64,000 nucleotides of DNA from Fulvivirga ligni (lineage in GTDB: Bacteria; Bacteroidota; Bacteroidia; Cytophagales; Cyclobacteriaceae), in assembly GCF_021389935.1 (NCBI RefSeq), contig NZ_CP089979.1:1593001-1657000 (forward strand), given 5' to 3'. The translations under genes were made by a program, and so were the position numbers. Under the pieces are notes generated by a model. It ran no database searches and was not told the origin of the DNA. It saw only the letters and a program-made list of their open reading frames with translations. This document shows, in pieces, positions 45,586 through 51,706 of this stretch; the first letter of the stretch is position 1; every line of letters starts with the position of its first letter.

Positions 45586-45749
45586 ACATACTGTTTTTAG
45601 TCAGATAGCCATTGAACTTTCGTGTTTCGAGTAGGTCAGATTTTCTGATAATCGGAGATGTAGTTAGGTGTATTTGGTGTCATTATTTAGTGCGATGAAT
45701 GGTCTGTACAGGTCATCCAGAGCTAGTTAGGAAATTAAATTAGATAGAG

Positions 45750-46475
45750 ATGAAAAGCAACCTAAACCTTATTGTAGTAGAAGATGATCCTATTATTGCT
45801 GAAGACATAAGAGAAACACTTATACATCTGGGGCATCATGTAGTAGACTGTGTATATAATGCTGAGCAATGCCTGGCCCTGTTAAAATGTAGTAAGGTAG
45901 ATATGCTAATTATGGATGTAGATCTGGGTAGAGATGAAATGGACGGTATTTCTTTAGCCAGAAAGGTGAAGCAGGAATACGGATATCCCTTTATATTTCT
46001 CACTTCATATTATGACGATGATACTTTGAAGCGTGCAGCAGATACCCAACCAAGAGCTTATGTGCTCAAACCTTTTGTTGAGAAAGACTTAAAAGTTGCT
46101 TTAGAAGTATCCATGGCCAGAAACGCTATTAGTAGGAATGTTACAACGGGTCATAGTTATGAAAATGATCGGCTCTTCGCTAAAGATCATGGTGTGCTGC
46201 AAGCTATTGCTATTAAGGATATTATCTACTTTAATTCTTGTGATAATTACTGTTACATTTTCGTGAAAGGAGCCAAGTATATGGTGCTCCATCGATTAAA
46301 AGATTTTCTGGATTTATATGGTCATTATGGGTTTCGACAGGTACACCGCTCTTTTGTAGTAAACCTCCATCATCTGGACCAAATCACTGAAGATTATGTC
46401 CATTTAAATGATTATAAAGTGCCTATAGGAAAGTCTTACAAGAAAGACTTTTTAAACAGCCTTACGGTGGTATAA
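45750..46475 (+). CDS. LytTR-type response regulator
   Basis: A 241-residue response regulator. Receiver domain (about 6-120) with acidic pair EDD at 11-13, phosphoacceptor Asp56 in DMLIMDVDLG and the conserved Lys in VLKPF; then a short linker and a LytTR DNA-binding domain (about 145-241, with YFNSCDNYCYIFVKG and FRQVHRSFVVNLHH). LytTR domains bind pairs of short direct repeats. No kinase gene is next to it; the LytS-type kinase is 3 kb away. The LytTR-only gene lies 120 bases downstream on the same strand. Confidence 0.9.
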   Translation: MKSNLNLIVVEDDPIIAEDIRETLIHLGHHVVDCVYNAEQCLALLKCSKVDMLIMDVDLGRDEMDGISLARKVKQEYGYPFIFLTSYYDDDTLKRAADTQPRAYVLKPFVEKDLKVALEVSMARNAISRNVTTGHSYENDRLFAKDHGVLQAIAIKDIIYFNSCDNYCYIFVKGAKYMVLHRLKDFLDLYGHYGFRQVHRSFVVNLHHLDQITEDYVHLNDYKVPIGKSYKKDFLNSLTVV

Positions 46476-46502
46476 CTTTTACCAAGTTATAAGCATACTT
46501 CA

Positions 46503-46532
46503 CCAATTATTAGCCAATGATGGCCAATTATT
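46503..46532 (+). promoter_or_regulatory. Direct repeat CCAATTATT x2, 21-bp period: candidate LytTR operator
   Basis: Two perfect 9-bp repeats (46503-46511 and 46524-46532) are separated by 12 bases, which include a third CCAAT at 46514-46518. The pair ends 64 bases before the LytTR-only gene. Two 9-bp repeats with a 12-base spacer is the pattern known for ComE- and PlnC-type LytTR regulators. Confidence 0.55.
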
Positions 46533-46595
46533 CATTGATTGTAGCTAACGGGATGTGGATCTTGTACACATGTTCAACCCACAAAAAGTTTCAAT

Positions 46596-46982
46596 ATGAT
46601 AACGCGCATCAATGATCTAGAAGAGGAATTAGTAGTAGAGGATGCTTTTCCTAAATTATTCCGAATAGCAGTACCTACGCTTGAAGGAATAACCTTCGTT
46701 TCTGTAGAAAAAATAATTTTTTGTAAGGCAGATAGCAACTATACTGAGTTGATTATGACTGACCATAAAAAGTTATTAGTTGCCAAGAGTCTCAAGCAAT
46801 TTGAAAGAATATTAATGGGCTCTGGTTTTTTTAGAATTCATCATAACGCCATAGTGAACCTGAGCCATATACAAAAATATGTGCGAGGCAGCGGCGGTTA
46901 TGTTGTGCTTACTGAGGGGCATCACCAGGATGTGTCCCGACGGCGAAAACACTCTTTTCTAAAGACTGTAGATTACCTCTAG
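46596..46982 (+). CDS. Stand-alone LytTR DNA-binding protein
   Basis: A 128-residue protein made almost only of a LytTR domain (about 20-125: VEKIIFCKADSNYTELIM, FFRIHHNAIVNLSHIQKYVRG, GYVVLTEGH). There is no receiver domain, membrane segment or signal sequence, and the ATG start is close to a perfect direct repeat, so it is not a truncated fragment of a longer gene. It may act without phosphorylation or pair with the nearby response regulators. Followed by a good terminator. Confidence 0.82.
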   Translation: MITRINDLEEELVVEDAFPKLFRIAVPTLEGITFVSVEKIIFCKADSNYTELIMTDHKKLLVAKSLKQFERILMGSGFFRIHHNAIVNLSHIQKYVRGSGGYVVLTEGHHQDVSRRRKHSFLKTVDYL

Positions 46983-46985
46983 AAT

Positions 46986-47010
46986 AAAGCTCCTTATGGA
47001 GCTTTTTTTA
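46986..47010 (+). terminator. Terminator after the LytTR-only gene
   Basis: AAAGCTCC and GGAGCTTT form a perfect 8-bp stem around TTAT, followed by TTTTTTA; it starts 4 bases after the stop. Confidence 0.85.
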
Positions 47011-47017
47011 TTTCACA

Positions 47018-47048
47018 TCCACTTGCTAACCGGAGTGTTCCACTTGCT
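47018..47048 (+). promoter_or_regulatory. Direct repeat TCCACTTGCT x2, 21-bp period: candidate LytTR operator
   Basis: Two identical 10-bp units at 47018-47027 and 47039-47048, exactly 21 bases apart, end 75 bases before the lipoprotein start. Confidence 0.55.
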
Positions 47049-47123
47049 CATTGGTGGTATGAAGGCCTTCCCCGACTGCCTAATTTCAGGTTTATATACA
47101 TTTTTAACTAACTAAATAAATTT

Positions 47124-48459
47124 ATGAAAACACTTAGCAAATCATTAATTCCTGTGGCTATGAGTCTGCTTGTGATGGTGGGAGCTATCTCTTCTTGTCA
47201 GGAAGAAGAAATAGCAGCTCAGCAGGAAGAAAAAGGTCAGGTGGATGCTTTTTGGGGGAAGCACCATGGCTAGAACTGATGGAAAGGCACAAATGGCAGA
47301 TGTCCTGGCGCGATCCTTGGCAAAAAGCTTAAGAGATGAGAGAGTACGAGCTCTTGTAAAGCGAGAAGTTTTAGAGAAACGGGATGGAGATTATAATGTG
47401 CTTTTTGCTCGTATAAAAGATGTAATAGTTCCTAATTCTAATACTCCATTTTATGAGGTATTGGGAAGAAACAGTGGTATGAATAAAGATCAATGGAAGC
47501 AGTATTTAGATGAAGTAGAAAGTAATTTTCCATTATTACAAATCGCAGTACCTGAGTTGCCTGAAATTAAACCTGAAGAATGGAATATTGGTGAGCACAT
47601 ACCAGCGGTCGCTATCAATAATTTAGCAGGTTATACACCTACATTAAAAGGTTATTCTAATGAGGTAGAGCCTATGCTGTTTGATACTGATGTGCCTCCG
47701 GAGGAACTTACAGTTGTGGTAAGTGAGAACGAACGACTATTGGTTTTTTCTGCGCATGGACCTGATATTGAAATTCCTCCTTTCTATTACAATAAGCTCC
47801 ATATCCTTATTGAAAAAATAAAGTATTATGATTGGAAATGGTTACACTGGGATGACGGTGGCTTCGGTGATGGGGATGATGATGGAGATGACAACGGTGG
47901 AGGATCTGGAGGAGATACAGAGGTTGACTGCGATGGTAAAGATGGAGATAGAATTACCAATAATGATAAAGATAACTATAACAAATGGAAGTTTACAACG
48001 TCCAAGAATGCAAAGAAGGCTGAGCCTTGGGCTTCAGGGGCATTTGAAATGAGAGCAGTAATTATTAGATCGAATGTTTCTAATGAATCTCTTGTGAAGA
48101 TTGAGAAATTTGTAATAGCCCCTCGAGCAGACGTTATAGATTGTAATGCATGGGGAAATAACTGTAGTTTATTTTGGTTTAATGTAGACGCCGAAGTCAT
48201 TACCTGGGAACCCGAACTGCATGGTTTAGAAATGATGTATGAATTTATTGAGGAAGATTCAGGTCCTGATATCACTCTTACTCTTGGGGCAACACTTCAA
48301 GCAACAGAGGCTTTGGAAATTGAAGGTGGTGTACAGGTGAATATTCCTGTAAACCATGATAAATTGGGTAGCTCAATAGTTGAATACTGTGATAATACTG
48401 ACGGAGAAGGAACGAAATATAACACCGGTTCACTTTACTTCTACGTAAACCAGCAATAA
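47124..48459 (+). pseudogene. Frameshifted lipoprotein gene (signal and body in different frames)
   Basis: ATG at 47124 opens a lipoprotein signal, MKTLSKSLIPVAMSLLVMVG then AISSC with a lipobox-like Cys25, but stops at TAG 47271-47273 after 49 residues. The body, a 404-residue frame (47245-48459), continues in the +1 frame. Removing one base from TTTTTGGGGG (47249-47258) joins them into about 444 residues. The body has a helical N-part (GKAQMADVLARSLAKSLRDE), an acidic glycine- and aspartate-rich linker near residues 205-235 and a beta-rich end. It resembles DUF3103-type secreted proteins, but not certainly. The cause may be a real mutation, phase variation or a sequencing error. Confidence 0.75.
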
Positions 48460-48485
48460 CCAAGTCAATGTTTAGTACAAATAAG

Positions 48486-48516
48486 TTGAGGTGTTCCAAT
48501 GGGGGATGCCTCAATT
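48486..48516. terminator. Hairpin between the lipoprotein gene and the convergent regulator gene
   Basis: TTGAGG (48486-48491) and CCTCAA (48509-48514) pair, with partial inner pairing, and a T-rich stretch follows on the plus strand. Confidence 0.5.
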
Positions 48517-48520
48517 TGCT

Positions 48521-49213
48521 TTATAACTTCTCCTCAAACTCTTTGCTCACACTCTCTTTATATTGTTCACCTATCGGTATTTCTATATCATCAATTTCTA
48601 CATCTGCTTTGGTGAAAGCCGTCACTTTTTCGGTGTTGATAATATAGCTTCGGTGAATTCTCAGAAACCTGTTATCCAGCTGATTATGAAAAGCACTGAG
48701 GCTTGTTTTGATGAGAAACTGTTCGTCATGCTTTACTATTTTCACATAGTCCTTTTGGCTTTCAATGTATAAAATATCCTGAAGCAATAGCTTGATATTC
48801 TTCTTGTTACGCTTTACAAAAATGTATTCTTTAGTAAGATTGTCTAGTTTGGAACCACCACTGGATAAGGTGAAAAACTTCTCTATGGCCTGAAAAAACC
48901 GCTCGAACACTATGGGCTTCAGTAAATAATCAACTGCATTGAGTTCAAAACCCTGAAGTGCGTAATCTCTGTGAGCGGTGGTGAAAATTACCTGAGGCTT
49001 CTCATGGAGGTTTTTGATGAAATCGGTGCCTTTCAGAAGAGGCATTTCGATATCCAGGAATATCAGATCTATAGTTCTGGTTCTCAATACCTGATGTGCT
49101 TCAATGGCATTGGCGCAAGAGGCAACCAGTTCTAAACTAGGTACTCGTGAAATGTGCTTCTCCAATAATTCTCGAGCTAGTTCTTCATCATCTACTACCA
49201 TACATCTGATCAT
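48521..49213 (-). CDS. LytR/AlgR-type response regulator
   Basis: A 230-residue regulator: receiver domain (about 2-118; acidic pair VVDDEE, phosphoacceptor Asp54 in DLIFLDIEMP, Lys in LLKPI) and LytTR domain (about 135-230; FLRIHRSYIINTEKV, IPIGEQYKESV). Its start overlaps the stop of the kinase gene upstream by 4 bases, so the two form a two-component operon of the LytS/LytR (YehU/YehT) type. A candidate operator lies upstream of the operon. Confidence 0.92.
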   Translation of the reverse strand: MIRCMVVDDEELARELLEKHISRVPSLELVASCANAIEAHQVLRTRTIDLIFLDIEMPLLKGTDFIKNLHEKPQVIFTTAHRDYALQGFELNAVDYLLKPIVFERFFQAIEKFFTLSSGGSKLDNLTKEYIFVKRNKKNIKLLLQDILYIESQKDYVKIVKHDEQFLIKTSLSAFHNQLDNRFLRIHRSYIINTEKVTAFTKADVEIDDIEIPIGEQYKESVSKEFEEKL

Positions 49214-50253
49214 GATAATTCTAGTTTTAAGGTAACTTTAAAAAACTCCTGCGTTTCCTCAATATGCAAATGGTGCTTTTCAGGATAGAGTAAATTCAGT
49301 CGTTTCTTTGCATTGGCTAATCCAATGGCCTCTCTGTTTAGTTGTGGCCCATCGGAAACTATCTGCGGTTTACTGTTCCTTGCGGTGAAAGCAATTATTT
49401 CAGAAGAAGCCTTCAAATCAATATCAATACTTGCTACTTTAATTTCCTCTTTTACCCCATGTTTAAAAGCATTTTCAATGAAAGTAAGCATAAGTAGAGG
49501 CGCTATTTCTGCAGTGGATTCTACCTTATGAGTAAAATGTACTTGAAGCCTTTTTCCATATCTCACTTTCTCCAGCGCTAAATAATTTTCCAGTAAACTA
49601 ATCTCTCCACTTAAAGGCACAAACTGGTCGTTGCACCGGTAAAGCATATAATCAAAGATGTCCGAAAGCCGGGCGATGACATCAGGCGTGTCATCAGACT
49701 TTTTTAGTGCCAGAGTATACAGGTTGTTCAGAGTATTGAAGAGAAAATGTGGATTGAGTTGGTTTTTAAGCAGATTGAGTTCTGTGATTTTTTGTTGCTC
49801 TCGTAGCTCTACCAATTCCCGTTGTCGGGTATAGTAAGACCAGGAGGCCAGTAATAGGGTAGGGAAAATATGCCAGATGATTTCATTAAAAAACACTTTG
49901 AAGTCGGTTACACGCCACCAGTAGCTGGCATCAGGCACACGAAATGAGGAAGCATATTCTATTTCCAGATAGTAATATCTAAGGGTAATCATTAAAGCAA
50001 ATGACAAATACAGATAGGCCAGCACCGATAATGTAAACAGGATTTTATTTTTATGCAGTAGCTTCGGCACCAGCAGATATAAAATTCCATAGGCGCTAAA
50101 CATCTGTGATAGCAGCTTATAAAAATCCAGAATCATCAAAGTGCTTCTGTCTTCTACTAAAACCCAGGCTGTGCTAACATAAAATACGTAGATGCAAATC
50201 CAAAAAAGGACATGACGGACATAGGTTTTTTGTAAAAGGCGGGATAAGGTCAT
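49210..50253 (-). CDS. LytS/YehU-type sensor histidine kinase
   Basis: A 347-residue membrane kinase of the His_kinase (PF06580) family. Four hydrophobic segments (about 14-32, 42-62, 70-92 and 122-140) form the sensing part, then a short coiled coil and QLNPHFLFNTLNNLY with phosphoacceptor His169, then an ATPase domain (about 245-345, ENAFKHGVKEE, and GLANAKKRLNLLYP). Co-operonic with the LytTR response regulator. Confidence 0.92.
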   Translation of the reverse strand: MTLSRLLQKTYVRHVLFWICIYVFYVSTAWVLVEDRSTLMILDFYKLLSQMFSAYGILYLLVPKLLHKNKILFTLSVLAYLYLSFALMITLRYYYLEIEYASSFRVPDASYWWRVTDFKVFFNEIIWHIFPTLLLASWSYYTRQRELVELREQQKITELNLLKNQLNPHFLFNTLNNLYTLALKKSDDTPDVIARLSDIFDYMLYRCNDQFVPLSGEISLLENYLALEKVRYGKRLQVHFTHKVESTAEIAPLLMLTFIENAFKHGVKEEIKVASIDIDLKASSEIIAFTARNSKPQIVSDGPQLNREAIGLANAKKRLNLLYPEKHHLHIEETQEFFKVTLKLELS

Positions 50254-50332
50254 CTATAATGGTTTGGAGGTAAATATATAATTAAAAGATTAATCCTAAG
50301 TCTGAGAAAGTAAAGGTTGGGCCATATGAACT

Positions 50333-50365
50333 GATGGTTGGTAGACTGTAATTGATTGTTTGTAG
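50333..50365 (-). promoter_or_regulatory. Imperfect direct repeat, 21-bp period: candidate LytTR operator
   Basis: On the plus strand GATGGTTGGTAG (50333-50344) and GATTGTTTGTAG (50354-50365) agree at 10 of 12 positions, 21 bases apart. Read on the minus strand it faces the kinase-regulator operon, 79 bases before its start, and starts like the other sites with a CCAAC-type motif. The same gap also serves the secreted-protein gene at 50447. Confidence 0.5.
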
Positions 50366-50446
50366 GCAGTTGTCTCCAGTACGTCTATTATTTGTAAGTA
50401 GCATGCCACTAAAAGATAGATTAGGGCATAATCTAAAACGAATCAA

Positions 50447-51706
50447 ATGATGACCAATCTAAAAATCAACCTGCTACTGAGTTTATCGATAGTAATCTTC
50501 ACGTTAAGTCATGCTTCAGCTGAAGAGCATTATTACCGCCAGCTTTTGTACAATCATGTCTCTCCTTATGTGCCGATTGTAGGTATTCATGAAATAAGTA
50601 AAGAGGAGGCCATGGGCGAGTCTCACTACCTTTTTAAGTATGACAAACAAGGAAGAATAAGCGAAATTATCAGTAATTATTATCTGGACGGGCGACTTCA
50701 TTTTTTAGCGTCTATAGGTGCATATAGAGCAGTGTTTACTTATGAAACAGGCAAAGAAATACGCACTTATTATGATAAAAACAATCAGAGAATAATCAAT
50801 GCAATGAATGTTTATAAGGAAGTCTATAATGTTGATAGCAAGGGATTTAAATATGCTCTGCATTATTATGATCTGGATGATGAACCTATGGAGTCTGTTT
50901 GGAATATCTCCAGGTATGAGTGGAAAAGACATAAGAATATGGTAGTGGAAAATCGCTATAACCTAAAAGATGAACCAATGCAGATCTCTTTGTTTTTTGA
51001 ATTTAAAACAACGGGCATTGTGTATGATAAAAAAGGTTGGCCAAAGGCACAATACAATCTGAATGATGACTTGGAAATAACGGATAATAGCATTGGCGTA
51101 GCAGCCTATCTGGATGAATATGCTGAAAATGGTGATCATGCAAAAGTATCATATCATAATAGCAATGGAAATTTGGTGCTGAGCATGAAAGGAGGTTGTG
51201 CAGTAATTGAAGCGTATTATAATGAGAATGGCGTGGAAATAGGGAGCACTTGTTTTGATGTTAACAAAAATGAAATCAAGAAGATAGATGTCAATGAGGT
51301 GAAGCTGGCAGCACTAGCCAGTGTCAGGGATTCTGCCGAAATAAAAAGAATAGCTTTGGATTATATGGTTGCTCTCCAAGAGCAGAAACCTGAGCTGATG
51401 AGAGACGTAGTACATCATCAACTATCGCAGAAGACCTTCGCTTTTAACAGAAGGGAAAAGAAAGAGGAGGTACAGAATACAAATTATGATGAAATGGTGG
51501 AGAGGGCGACATCGTTTAATAAGGCCAATAATATGTTTCCTCAAAGCCCCGCGAATCAGATAGTGGTGCTTGATATTTATAACAGGATAGCCACGATAAA
51601 ACTAGTATCTGATAGCTGGGTGGAATATATGCAAATGATCAAAATGGAGGATAAATGGAGTATTATCAATCAGGTATGGCAATATAAAATTCTTAAACTC
51701 TACTAA
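50447..51706 (+). CDS. Secreted protein with repeats and a C-terminal NTF2-like domain
   Basis: A 419-residue protein with a signal peptide (about 1-25, ending SHASA). Residues about 60-290 contain loosely repeated short units of the type YDL-D-EPM / YNLKDEPM / YNLNDDLE / YYNENGVEIG, like RHS/YD or WG-like beta repeats. The last 120 residues (about 300-419, AEIKRIALDYMVALQEQKPE, SDSWVEYMQMIKMEDKWSIINQVW) match an NTF2-like, lumazine-binding-type fold. Function unknown. It is divergent from the LytS/LytTR operon with a shared control gap, which makes it a candidate target. Confidence 0.65.
   Translation: MMTNLKINLLLSLSIVIFTLSHASAEEHYYRQLLYNHVSPYVPIVGIHEISKEEAMGESHYLFKYDKQGRISEIISNYYLDGRLHFLASIGAYRAVFTYETGKEIRTYYDKNNQRIINAMNVYKEVYNVDSKGFKYALHYYDLDDEPMESVWNISRYEWKRHKNMVVENRYNLKDEPMQISLFFEFKTTGIVYDKKGWPKAQYNLNDDLEITDNSIGVAAYLDEYAENGDHAKVSYHNSNGNLVLSMKGGCAVIEAYYNENGVEIGSTCFDVNKNEIKKIDVNEVKLAALASVRDSAEIKRIALDYMVALQEQKPELMRDVVHHQLSQKTFAFNRREKKEEVQNTNYDEMVERATSFNKANNMFPQSPANQIVVLDIYNRIATIKLVSDSWVEYMQMIKMEDKWSIINQVWQYKILKLY

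Follow-up and report, generated by a model that had tools for sequence, protein, structure and literature searches.

The window analyzed here, a 64-kb stretch inside the complete 6.52-Mb genome of Fulvivirga ligni, harbors a compact island of LytTR regulator genes together with three pairs of short direct repeats, referred to below as sites A, B and C. On the plus strand, the island begins with gene 45750 (45750–46475), which encodes a REC-LytTR response regulator (Pfam Response_reg 7e-19, LytTR 8e-16) and has no kinase gene as a direct neighbor. It is followed by site A (46502–46531, plus strand), which has the form ACCAATTAT-12-GCCAATTAT, and by gene 46596 (46596–46982, plus strand) for a LytTR-only, i.e. 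receiver-less, regulator of 128 amino acids (aa) in which Pfam finds LytTR (4.8e-17) and no other domain. Between this gene and site B (TCCACTTGC-12-TCCACTTGC, 47018–47047, plus strand) lies a terminator-like hairpin with a subsequent T run (46986–47005, plus strand). Next comes a lipoprotein gene on the same strand, whose first frame (47124–47264) encodes a signal peptide and a lipobox according to sequence and translation, and whose second frame (47245–48459), a 404-aa open reading frame, encodes the body and is the probable target of site B. The minus strand carries a LytS/LytT operon composed of a LytS-type histidine kinase gene (49210–50253; Pfam His_kinase 1.4e-25) and gene 48521 (48521–49213) for a second REC-LytTR response regulator (Response_reg 2e-20, LytTR 9e-18). 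Site C (50341–50369, minus strand), which consists of CTGCCTAC (50369–50362) and CAGTCTAC (50348–50341) at lag 21, separates the kinase gene from the divergent plus-strand gene 50447 (50447–51706) for a secreted protein. The genome contains 23 LytTR domains in total, and a LytTR match is present in 98 of 98 genomes of the family.

The earlier note on this DNA had described three same-sense repeat pairs with a period of exactly 21 bp, and all three are indeed present. In the units chosen there, CCAATTATT recurs at 46503/46524 with 9 of 9 identical bases (site A), TCCACTTGCT at 47018/47039 with 10 of 10 (site B), and GATGGTTGGTAG/GATTGTTTGTAG at 50333/50354 with 10 of 12 (site C). Counted from the ends of these units, the start codons (46596, 47124 and 50253) are 63, 75 and 79 bp away, so that the values given for B and C hold and the 64 bp given for A is off by one. 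At lag 21, the whole window has four exact repeats of 9 bp or longer, namely A, B and two in open frames (49752 and 60137); each of the other lags from 12 to 40 has 0–3. Within the non-coding DNA of the window, two exact pairs at lag 21 compare with a mean of 0.04 at other lags. The repeat of site A recurs once more in weaker form (CCAAGTTAT) at 46482, 21 bp 5′ of 46503 (ACCAAGTTA from 46481 in the register of site A), and a half-step copy, CCAATGATG, lies at 46514. Beyond the geometry, A and B also resemble each other in the 13 plus-strand bases 3′ of their second repeat, TCATTGATTGTAG after A (46532–46544) and TCATTGGTGGTAT after B (47048–47060), which are identical at 10 of 13 positions and share TCATTG-T-GTA; agreement of this degree or better was seen in 125 of 200,000 random 13-mer pairs. 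The bases following site A could possibly constitute a −33 region with a putative promoter role. The repeats end 63–79 bp before the start codons, and a convincing Bacteroidota promoter element was not located; a sigma-70 promoter scan was uninformative, with 15 sites versus 17.4 in shuffles.

ComE- and PlnC-type sites are pairs of 9-bp repeats with a 12-base spacer. The resemblance to this geometry that had been pointed out before is right as judged from the available excerpts of PMC6193735 and PMC4847170. The latter, the YpdB paper, states in its excerpt that the sites of almost all LytTR regulators comprise two 9–11-nt repeats 11–13 nt apart and that the family's sites lack a common consensus; for AgrA, the excerpt of PMC4227749 describes binding to two direct repeats 5′ of its promoters. 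Two same-sense repeats of 9–11 nt with a spacer of 11–13, as well as a LytTR regulator gene adjoining them, are likewise found in the window. For a quantitative comparison, a matrix was derived from 17 of the 25 rows for LytTR Regulatory Systems (LRS) in the accessible part of Tables 2–3 of PMC6193735. The eight excluded rows were one incomplete row, one with an 8-letter repeat, one further row with a 13-bp spacer, two from Chlamydia, one archaeal row and two 11-bp rows from Bacteroides. Twenty stretches of 20 kb, hand-picked at roughly even steps, and whole-genome pattern searches served as background.

At spacing 21, sites A and B score 16.4 and 16.1 with this published-repeat matrix. A value of 16 is not reached in any of the 192 upstream gaps that served as controls from this genome, among which the top score is 13.1. 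When the gaps themselves were shuffled, site A obtained p=0.001 and the score of site B was reached in 0 of 2000 shuffles. Both sites hence carry half-sites near published LytTR repeats, as is apparent for B (TCCACTTGC-12-TCCACTTGC) beside the S. pneumoniae pair ACCACTTAC-12-ACCACTTGC given in the excerpt of PMC6193735. In the 6.52-Mb genome, the pattern CCANTTRY-N13-CCANTTRY has four matches: A and B are two of them, and the others lie in open frames. The backward control has two. A large regulon of site B was considered and rejected: with up to three mismatches the site-B pattern has 12 matches versus 6 for the reversed control, and the single match with two mismatches looks coding by eye. 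On the minus strand at 45648–45678, 5′ of the REC-LytTR gene 45750, a weak pair ACCAAATAC-13-TCCGATTAT (score 10.8 with the published matrix, spacing 22) lies inside the control range.

The LytTR-only protein appears to have no close orthologue, since the best of the listed matches across 14 genomes of the genus shares only 50% identity with it; the genome scan used an alignment of four members. Its nearest homologues (50–54% identity) are about 247–250 aa long and possess a receiver domain where examined. The homologous regulator is preceded by a TPR and histidine-kinase gene in all four loci checked (L205, L208, L209 and L210). A published-matrix pair in the gap behind the regulator reaches p<0.05 in six of the seven closest homologues (at least 50% identity), the seventh showing p=0.09. 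Altogether 60 homologues were examined, 42 of them with a testable gap, and p<0.05 was obtained in 12 of these 42 gaps versus about two expected. A clade matrix was compiled from 20 half-sites of the LytTR-only clade, which were hand-picked from pairs already seen, so that the choice was not blind; per unit, site B scores 11.5 with this matrix versus 6.5–12.6 for the clade members. A search of plasmids with the LytTR-only protein matched 5 of 72,556 records, with a best identity of 43%, and yielded nothing useful.

The lipoproteins encoded behind five of the clade's regulators form one family with 24–55% mutual identity. The window lipoprotein has no blastp match to these lipoproteins, and LytTR genes lie near its own homologues in one of nine loci, for which reasons its role as a conserved LytTR target was rejected. 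Homologues of the window lipoprotein were found in 12 of 97 other genomes of the family that were searched, and its body matched no Pfam family. The gene is split over two frames that overlap around 47245–47264, near a G run, and the homologues elsewhere are single frames of 384–487 aa (eight uncut loci); a pseudogene, a sequencing error or a slippage switch may each account for the split. In five of the nine homologue loci (L287, L289, L290, L292 and L293), the next gene encodes a protein of 232–236 aa that looks secreted, and in the other four the next product has 172–255 aa; the window has no such gene 3′ of the lipoprotein gene.

For site C, the part conserved in relatives is offset from the unit chosen before and comprises GTAGACTG at 50341 and GTAGGCAG at 50362, which read YWGYCTAC toward the kinase. 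The best 12-base pair in this gap has p=0.006 against shuffles. Similar pairs precede two homologous kinase genes: L263 (51% kinase identity) has two copies of CTGTCTAC with lag 21, oriented as in the window, 58 bp 5′ of the kinase gene (11/12, p=0.003), and L042 has two copies of AGTCTAC, oriented alike (11/12, p=0.003). In L263/L296, the corresponding divergent position is taken by a homologue (42%) of gene 50447. Among kinase-homologue gaps of at least 100 bp, GYCTAC was found in 6 of 22, i.e. as pairs in L263 and L042 and as a single copy in L268, L269, L270 and L272; eight close or nearby kinase homologues (L040, L041, L264–L267, L273 and L274) have no adequate gap. With at most one mismatch, the C pattern matches the genome only at C itself, which had to match because the pattern was derived from C and its relatives. 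In the non-coding stretch of another LytS kinase locus (L046, from 3259), a long simple repeat with a 7-bp unit (GTTAATT-like) was observed.

The recurrence of the spacing was assessed by a lag test on 416 non-coding gaps from 236 loci that were picked by LytTR or LytS protein similarity, with the window excluded and duplicates removed. The criterion was a 10-of-12 repeat, lag 21 was compared with 49 other lags, and related genomes were counted as independent. Lag 21 was found in 34 of the 416 gaps, other lags on average in 5.67 and at most in 14, corresponding to a Poisson probability of 6e-16 for the pooled excess if relatedness is ignored. The loci where the effect was first seen contributed 11 of 90 gaps (other-lag mean 1.20), the LytTR loci of the same genome that were fetched later 6 of 52 (mean 0.45, maximum 2), and the later loci from other genomes 17 of 274 (mean 4.02, maximum 11). 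In control gaps of the same genome, lag 21 occurs in 4 of 181 (mean 3.37, maximum 9), and in a foreign control of eight loci without LytTR in 0 of 58 (mean 0.69). Equal frequency in ordinary intergenic DNA, which would have spoken against the repeats as regulatory sites, was hence not encountered: the excess stands beside LytTR/LytS genes, with none in the controls. The published matrix gives a similar picture for the LytTR-only-like loci, with 24 matches at lag 21, 1–6 at other lags from 14 to 31, and 2 in the control of the same genome. Among the lag-21 pairs listed, most end about 40–100 bp 5′ of a start codon, a distance recorded without a control set. One locus of the control set (L092, 2374–2450; G000:C1 near 2102400) contains a non-coding array with a 21-bp period (GAGTAAATAGATTT) in a stretch with no listed LytTR domain.

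The relatives of the REC-LytTR regulator 45750 alone yield four lag-21 pairs versus a mean of 0.39. In 5 of 30 of their loci (L235, L237, L252, L257 and L106, the last from the same genome), a 21-bp pair immediately follows the regulator gene and is itself followed by a gene on the same strand. At L235 (gap 1298–1494) and L106 (gap 2037–2126), whose regulators share 36–38% identity with 45750, the pairs behind the regulator are of the TTCACTAA/ATCACTAA type, a half-site that perhaps represents a third LytTR specificity. At locus L297 (1680–6009, genome G045), a propeller-type sensor kinase is followed by a REC-LytTR gene and this in turn by a LytTR-only gene, with a 21-bp pair (two copies of CACACTTAC) between the latter two. 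This gene order is that of the window, although the two LytTR-only proteins differ in type (29% identity). Viewed across all loci, the spacing is common to more LytTR loci than the half-site.

Taken together, A, B and C are explained best as LytTR boxes, of which B would serve the lipoprotein gene, A the LytTR-only gene, and C the LytS/LytT operon and/or gene 50447; we assign a probability of roughly 0.8 to this explanation as a whole. That A and B are LytTR-type sites, as had been proposed, is well supported by the published-repeat matrix, their rarity in the genome and similar pairs beside homologous regulators. The same proposal for C is supported by the pairs before the two homologous kinase genes, and C is best read as a LytS/LytT regulator box whose specificity is unlike that of A and B. 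The view of one local regulon was not supported, given that the units of A/B and C differ, that C fails with the published matrix and that A ranks below B under the LytTR-only clade matrix; at least two LytTR specificities most likely operate in the island. Mechanistically, the two half-sites of a box would be separated by 21 bp, exactly two turns of the helix, and would share one face of the DNA, with one LytTR domain on each. The boxes would be situated 5′ of the promoter of the adjoining gene and would most likely activate it, considering the described behavior of LytTR proteins with repeats next to a promoter (excerpts of PMC4847170 and PMC6193735). At site B, the reader may be the LytTR-only protein 46596 or one closely related to it, which would switch on the lipoprotein gene, and the site probably serves a separate unit because of the terminator-like hairpin between the LytTR-only and lipoprotein genes. 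Site A could drive the LytTR-only gene either through the REC-LytTR regulator 45750 or through the LytTR-only protein itself. Site C may be read by the operon's own regulator, with the operon and/or gene 50447 as the output. Autoregulation through A and C, part of the earlier note's proposal, is possible, although at A a relay from the REC-LytTR gene 5′ of it is equally likely. Since the LytTR-only protein has no receiver for phosphorylation, its activity is perhaps set by the protein level, which could be controlled through site A. The geometry, the match of A and B to published half-sites, the genome rarity and the recurrence beside homologous regulators were computed, and the pairing of proteins with sites, activation and feedback are what we infer from them.

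Several observations weigh against this explanation. Of the 42 homologue gaps, 30 lack a significant pair. At L010 the next gene lies on the opposite strand, the best spacing at L207 and L010 is 20, and the pair at L206 is poor. Site A scores only 5.0 and 6.6 with the LytTR-only clade matrix, and homologues of the window lipoprotein adjoin LytTR genes in only one of nine loci. Site C reaches just 5.0 and 6.2 on the two strands with the published matrix (gap p=0.59 and 0.058), its half-site not being close to published LytTR repeats, a likeness that is not required according to the excerpt of PMC4847170. Of the 22 kinase-homologue gaps that measure 100 bp or more, only 2 have the paired C motif, and 16 (L271, L275 and 14 lower-scoring kinase homologues) contain no GYCTAC. 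With the published matrix, the 20 other LytTR loci of the same genome and the 29 kinase loci of the genus show no lag-21 excess (2 pairs in each set, other lags up to 3), and the top-Pfam loci and the relatives of 45750 have no lag-21 pairs at all. When exact 9-bp repeats are required, those 20 LytTR loci have no pair at lag 21; six appear at 10 of 12. The 29 LytTR loci with the best Pfam scores likewise lack a clear excess (one 10-of-12 pair versus a mean of 0.49, and no exact pair), from which it follows that the lag-21 signal is unequal among LytTR groups; some of these groups appear to break the rule or to have their targets elsewhere.

The proposals differ in the reader of site A. In a two-step relay, REC-LytTR 45750 would bind A and turn on the LytTR-only gene, whose product would then bind B. 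This is a close call that falls just short of even odds: the five loci with a 21-bp pair behind a 45750-type regulator have it in the same place as A behind 45750, and L297 repeats the row of REC-LytTR gene, pair and LytTR-only gene, yet these loci are a minority (5 of 30), and their half-sites TTCACTAA (L235) and TTCACTAA/ATCACTAA (L106) match A only in part, with the other three differing again. Alternatively, A and B may both be read by the LytTR-only protein, which would then act as a phosphorylation-independent activator with positive feedback in the manner of HdrR/BrsR, here without a membrane inhibitor gene. The likeness of A and B in geometry, published-matrix fit and 10 of 13 bases 3′, the missing receiver domain, and the autoregulation by a receiver-less LytTR protein on record in the excerpt of PMC6193735 all fit such feedback, which nevertheless remains a tentative proposal: position 5 is C or G in all 20 clade half-sites used and A in site A, and the clade-matrix scores of 5.0/6.6 for site A contrast with 11.5 for site B. 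The loci of the 45750 relatives and the gene order of L297 tilt the choice slightly toward the relay.

A different question is whether site C governs the divergent gene 50447 instead of the kinase operon. Site C is situated about midway between the two genes (78 and 82 bp), and the divergent neighbor is kept in L263 (42% identity). This assignment is nonetheless rather doubtful, as the half-sites of the window, L263 and L042 pairs all face the kinase, and the divergent neighbor in L042 is no blastp homologue of 50447 (best 10 residues, E=3.8). Finally, the repeats could be chance or general intergenic repeat noise, given that short two-copy repeats are common and that the control gaps of the same genome include four with lag 21, near the other-lag mean of 3.4. 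The prominence of lag 21 beside LytTR/LytS genes and not in controls, together with the fact that the two-block pattern has no genomic match outside open frames other than A and B, renders this highly improbable.

Among the closest known systems are the LRS (HdrR and BrsR of S. mutans and relatives), for which the excerpt of PMC6193735 describes 9-bp direct repeats with a 12-bp spacer, as in the window, located 5′ of a promoter, and half-sites such as ACCACTTAT/ACCGCTTAT and ACCACTTGC that resemble site B. A receiver-less LytTR regulator, in the window 46596, is a further shared feature. In contrast to the LRS, no membrane inhibitor gene follows the regulator within one operon, as read from the sequence without topology prediction. 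Instead, the next gene in the window is the lipoprotein gene, which lies behind the terminator-like hairpin and has a repeat pair of its own, and site C has another half-site. LRS-like operons of Bacteroides, members of the same phylum, show direct repeats 5′ of a Bacteroidota-type promoter in the accessible part of Table 3 of PMC6193735, but these are 11-bp repeats with an 11-bp spacer, their regulators have transmembrane segments, and a membrane-protein gene comes first. With YpdB, AgrA, ComE and PlnC-type response regulators, the repeat geometry is shared, whereas half-site sequences and organisms differ. No publication title on LytTR sites in Cytophagales was found among the matches listed, in searches that mostly covered literature outside subscription journals.

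The geometry itself is hence already known, and what is new is that such pairs recur behind a regulator gene and ahead of its next neighbor, as well as the possible two-step relay. It is conceivable, if short of probable, that in some LytTR clades of the Cytophagales and their relatives a 21-bp pair between the regulator and the next gene marks the target, and that in the genome of the window a receiver-less LytTR protein derived from a kinase-controlled ancestor forms a second tier that leads from a REC-LytTR regulator to the lipoprotein gene. If true, half-sites would become readable from genomes clade by clade, and the rule of a target beside its regulator would make many LytTR systems testable together. 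Furthermore, the fact that a matrix from mostly Gram-positive repeats works here suggests that the recognition mode of LytTR proteins has been kept across phyla.

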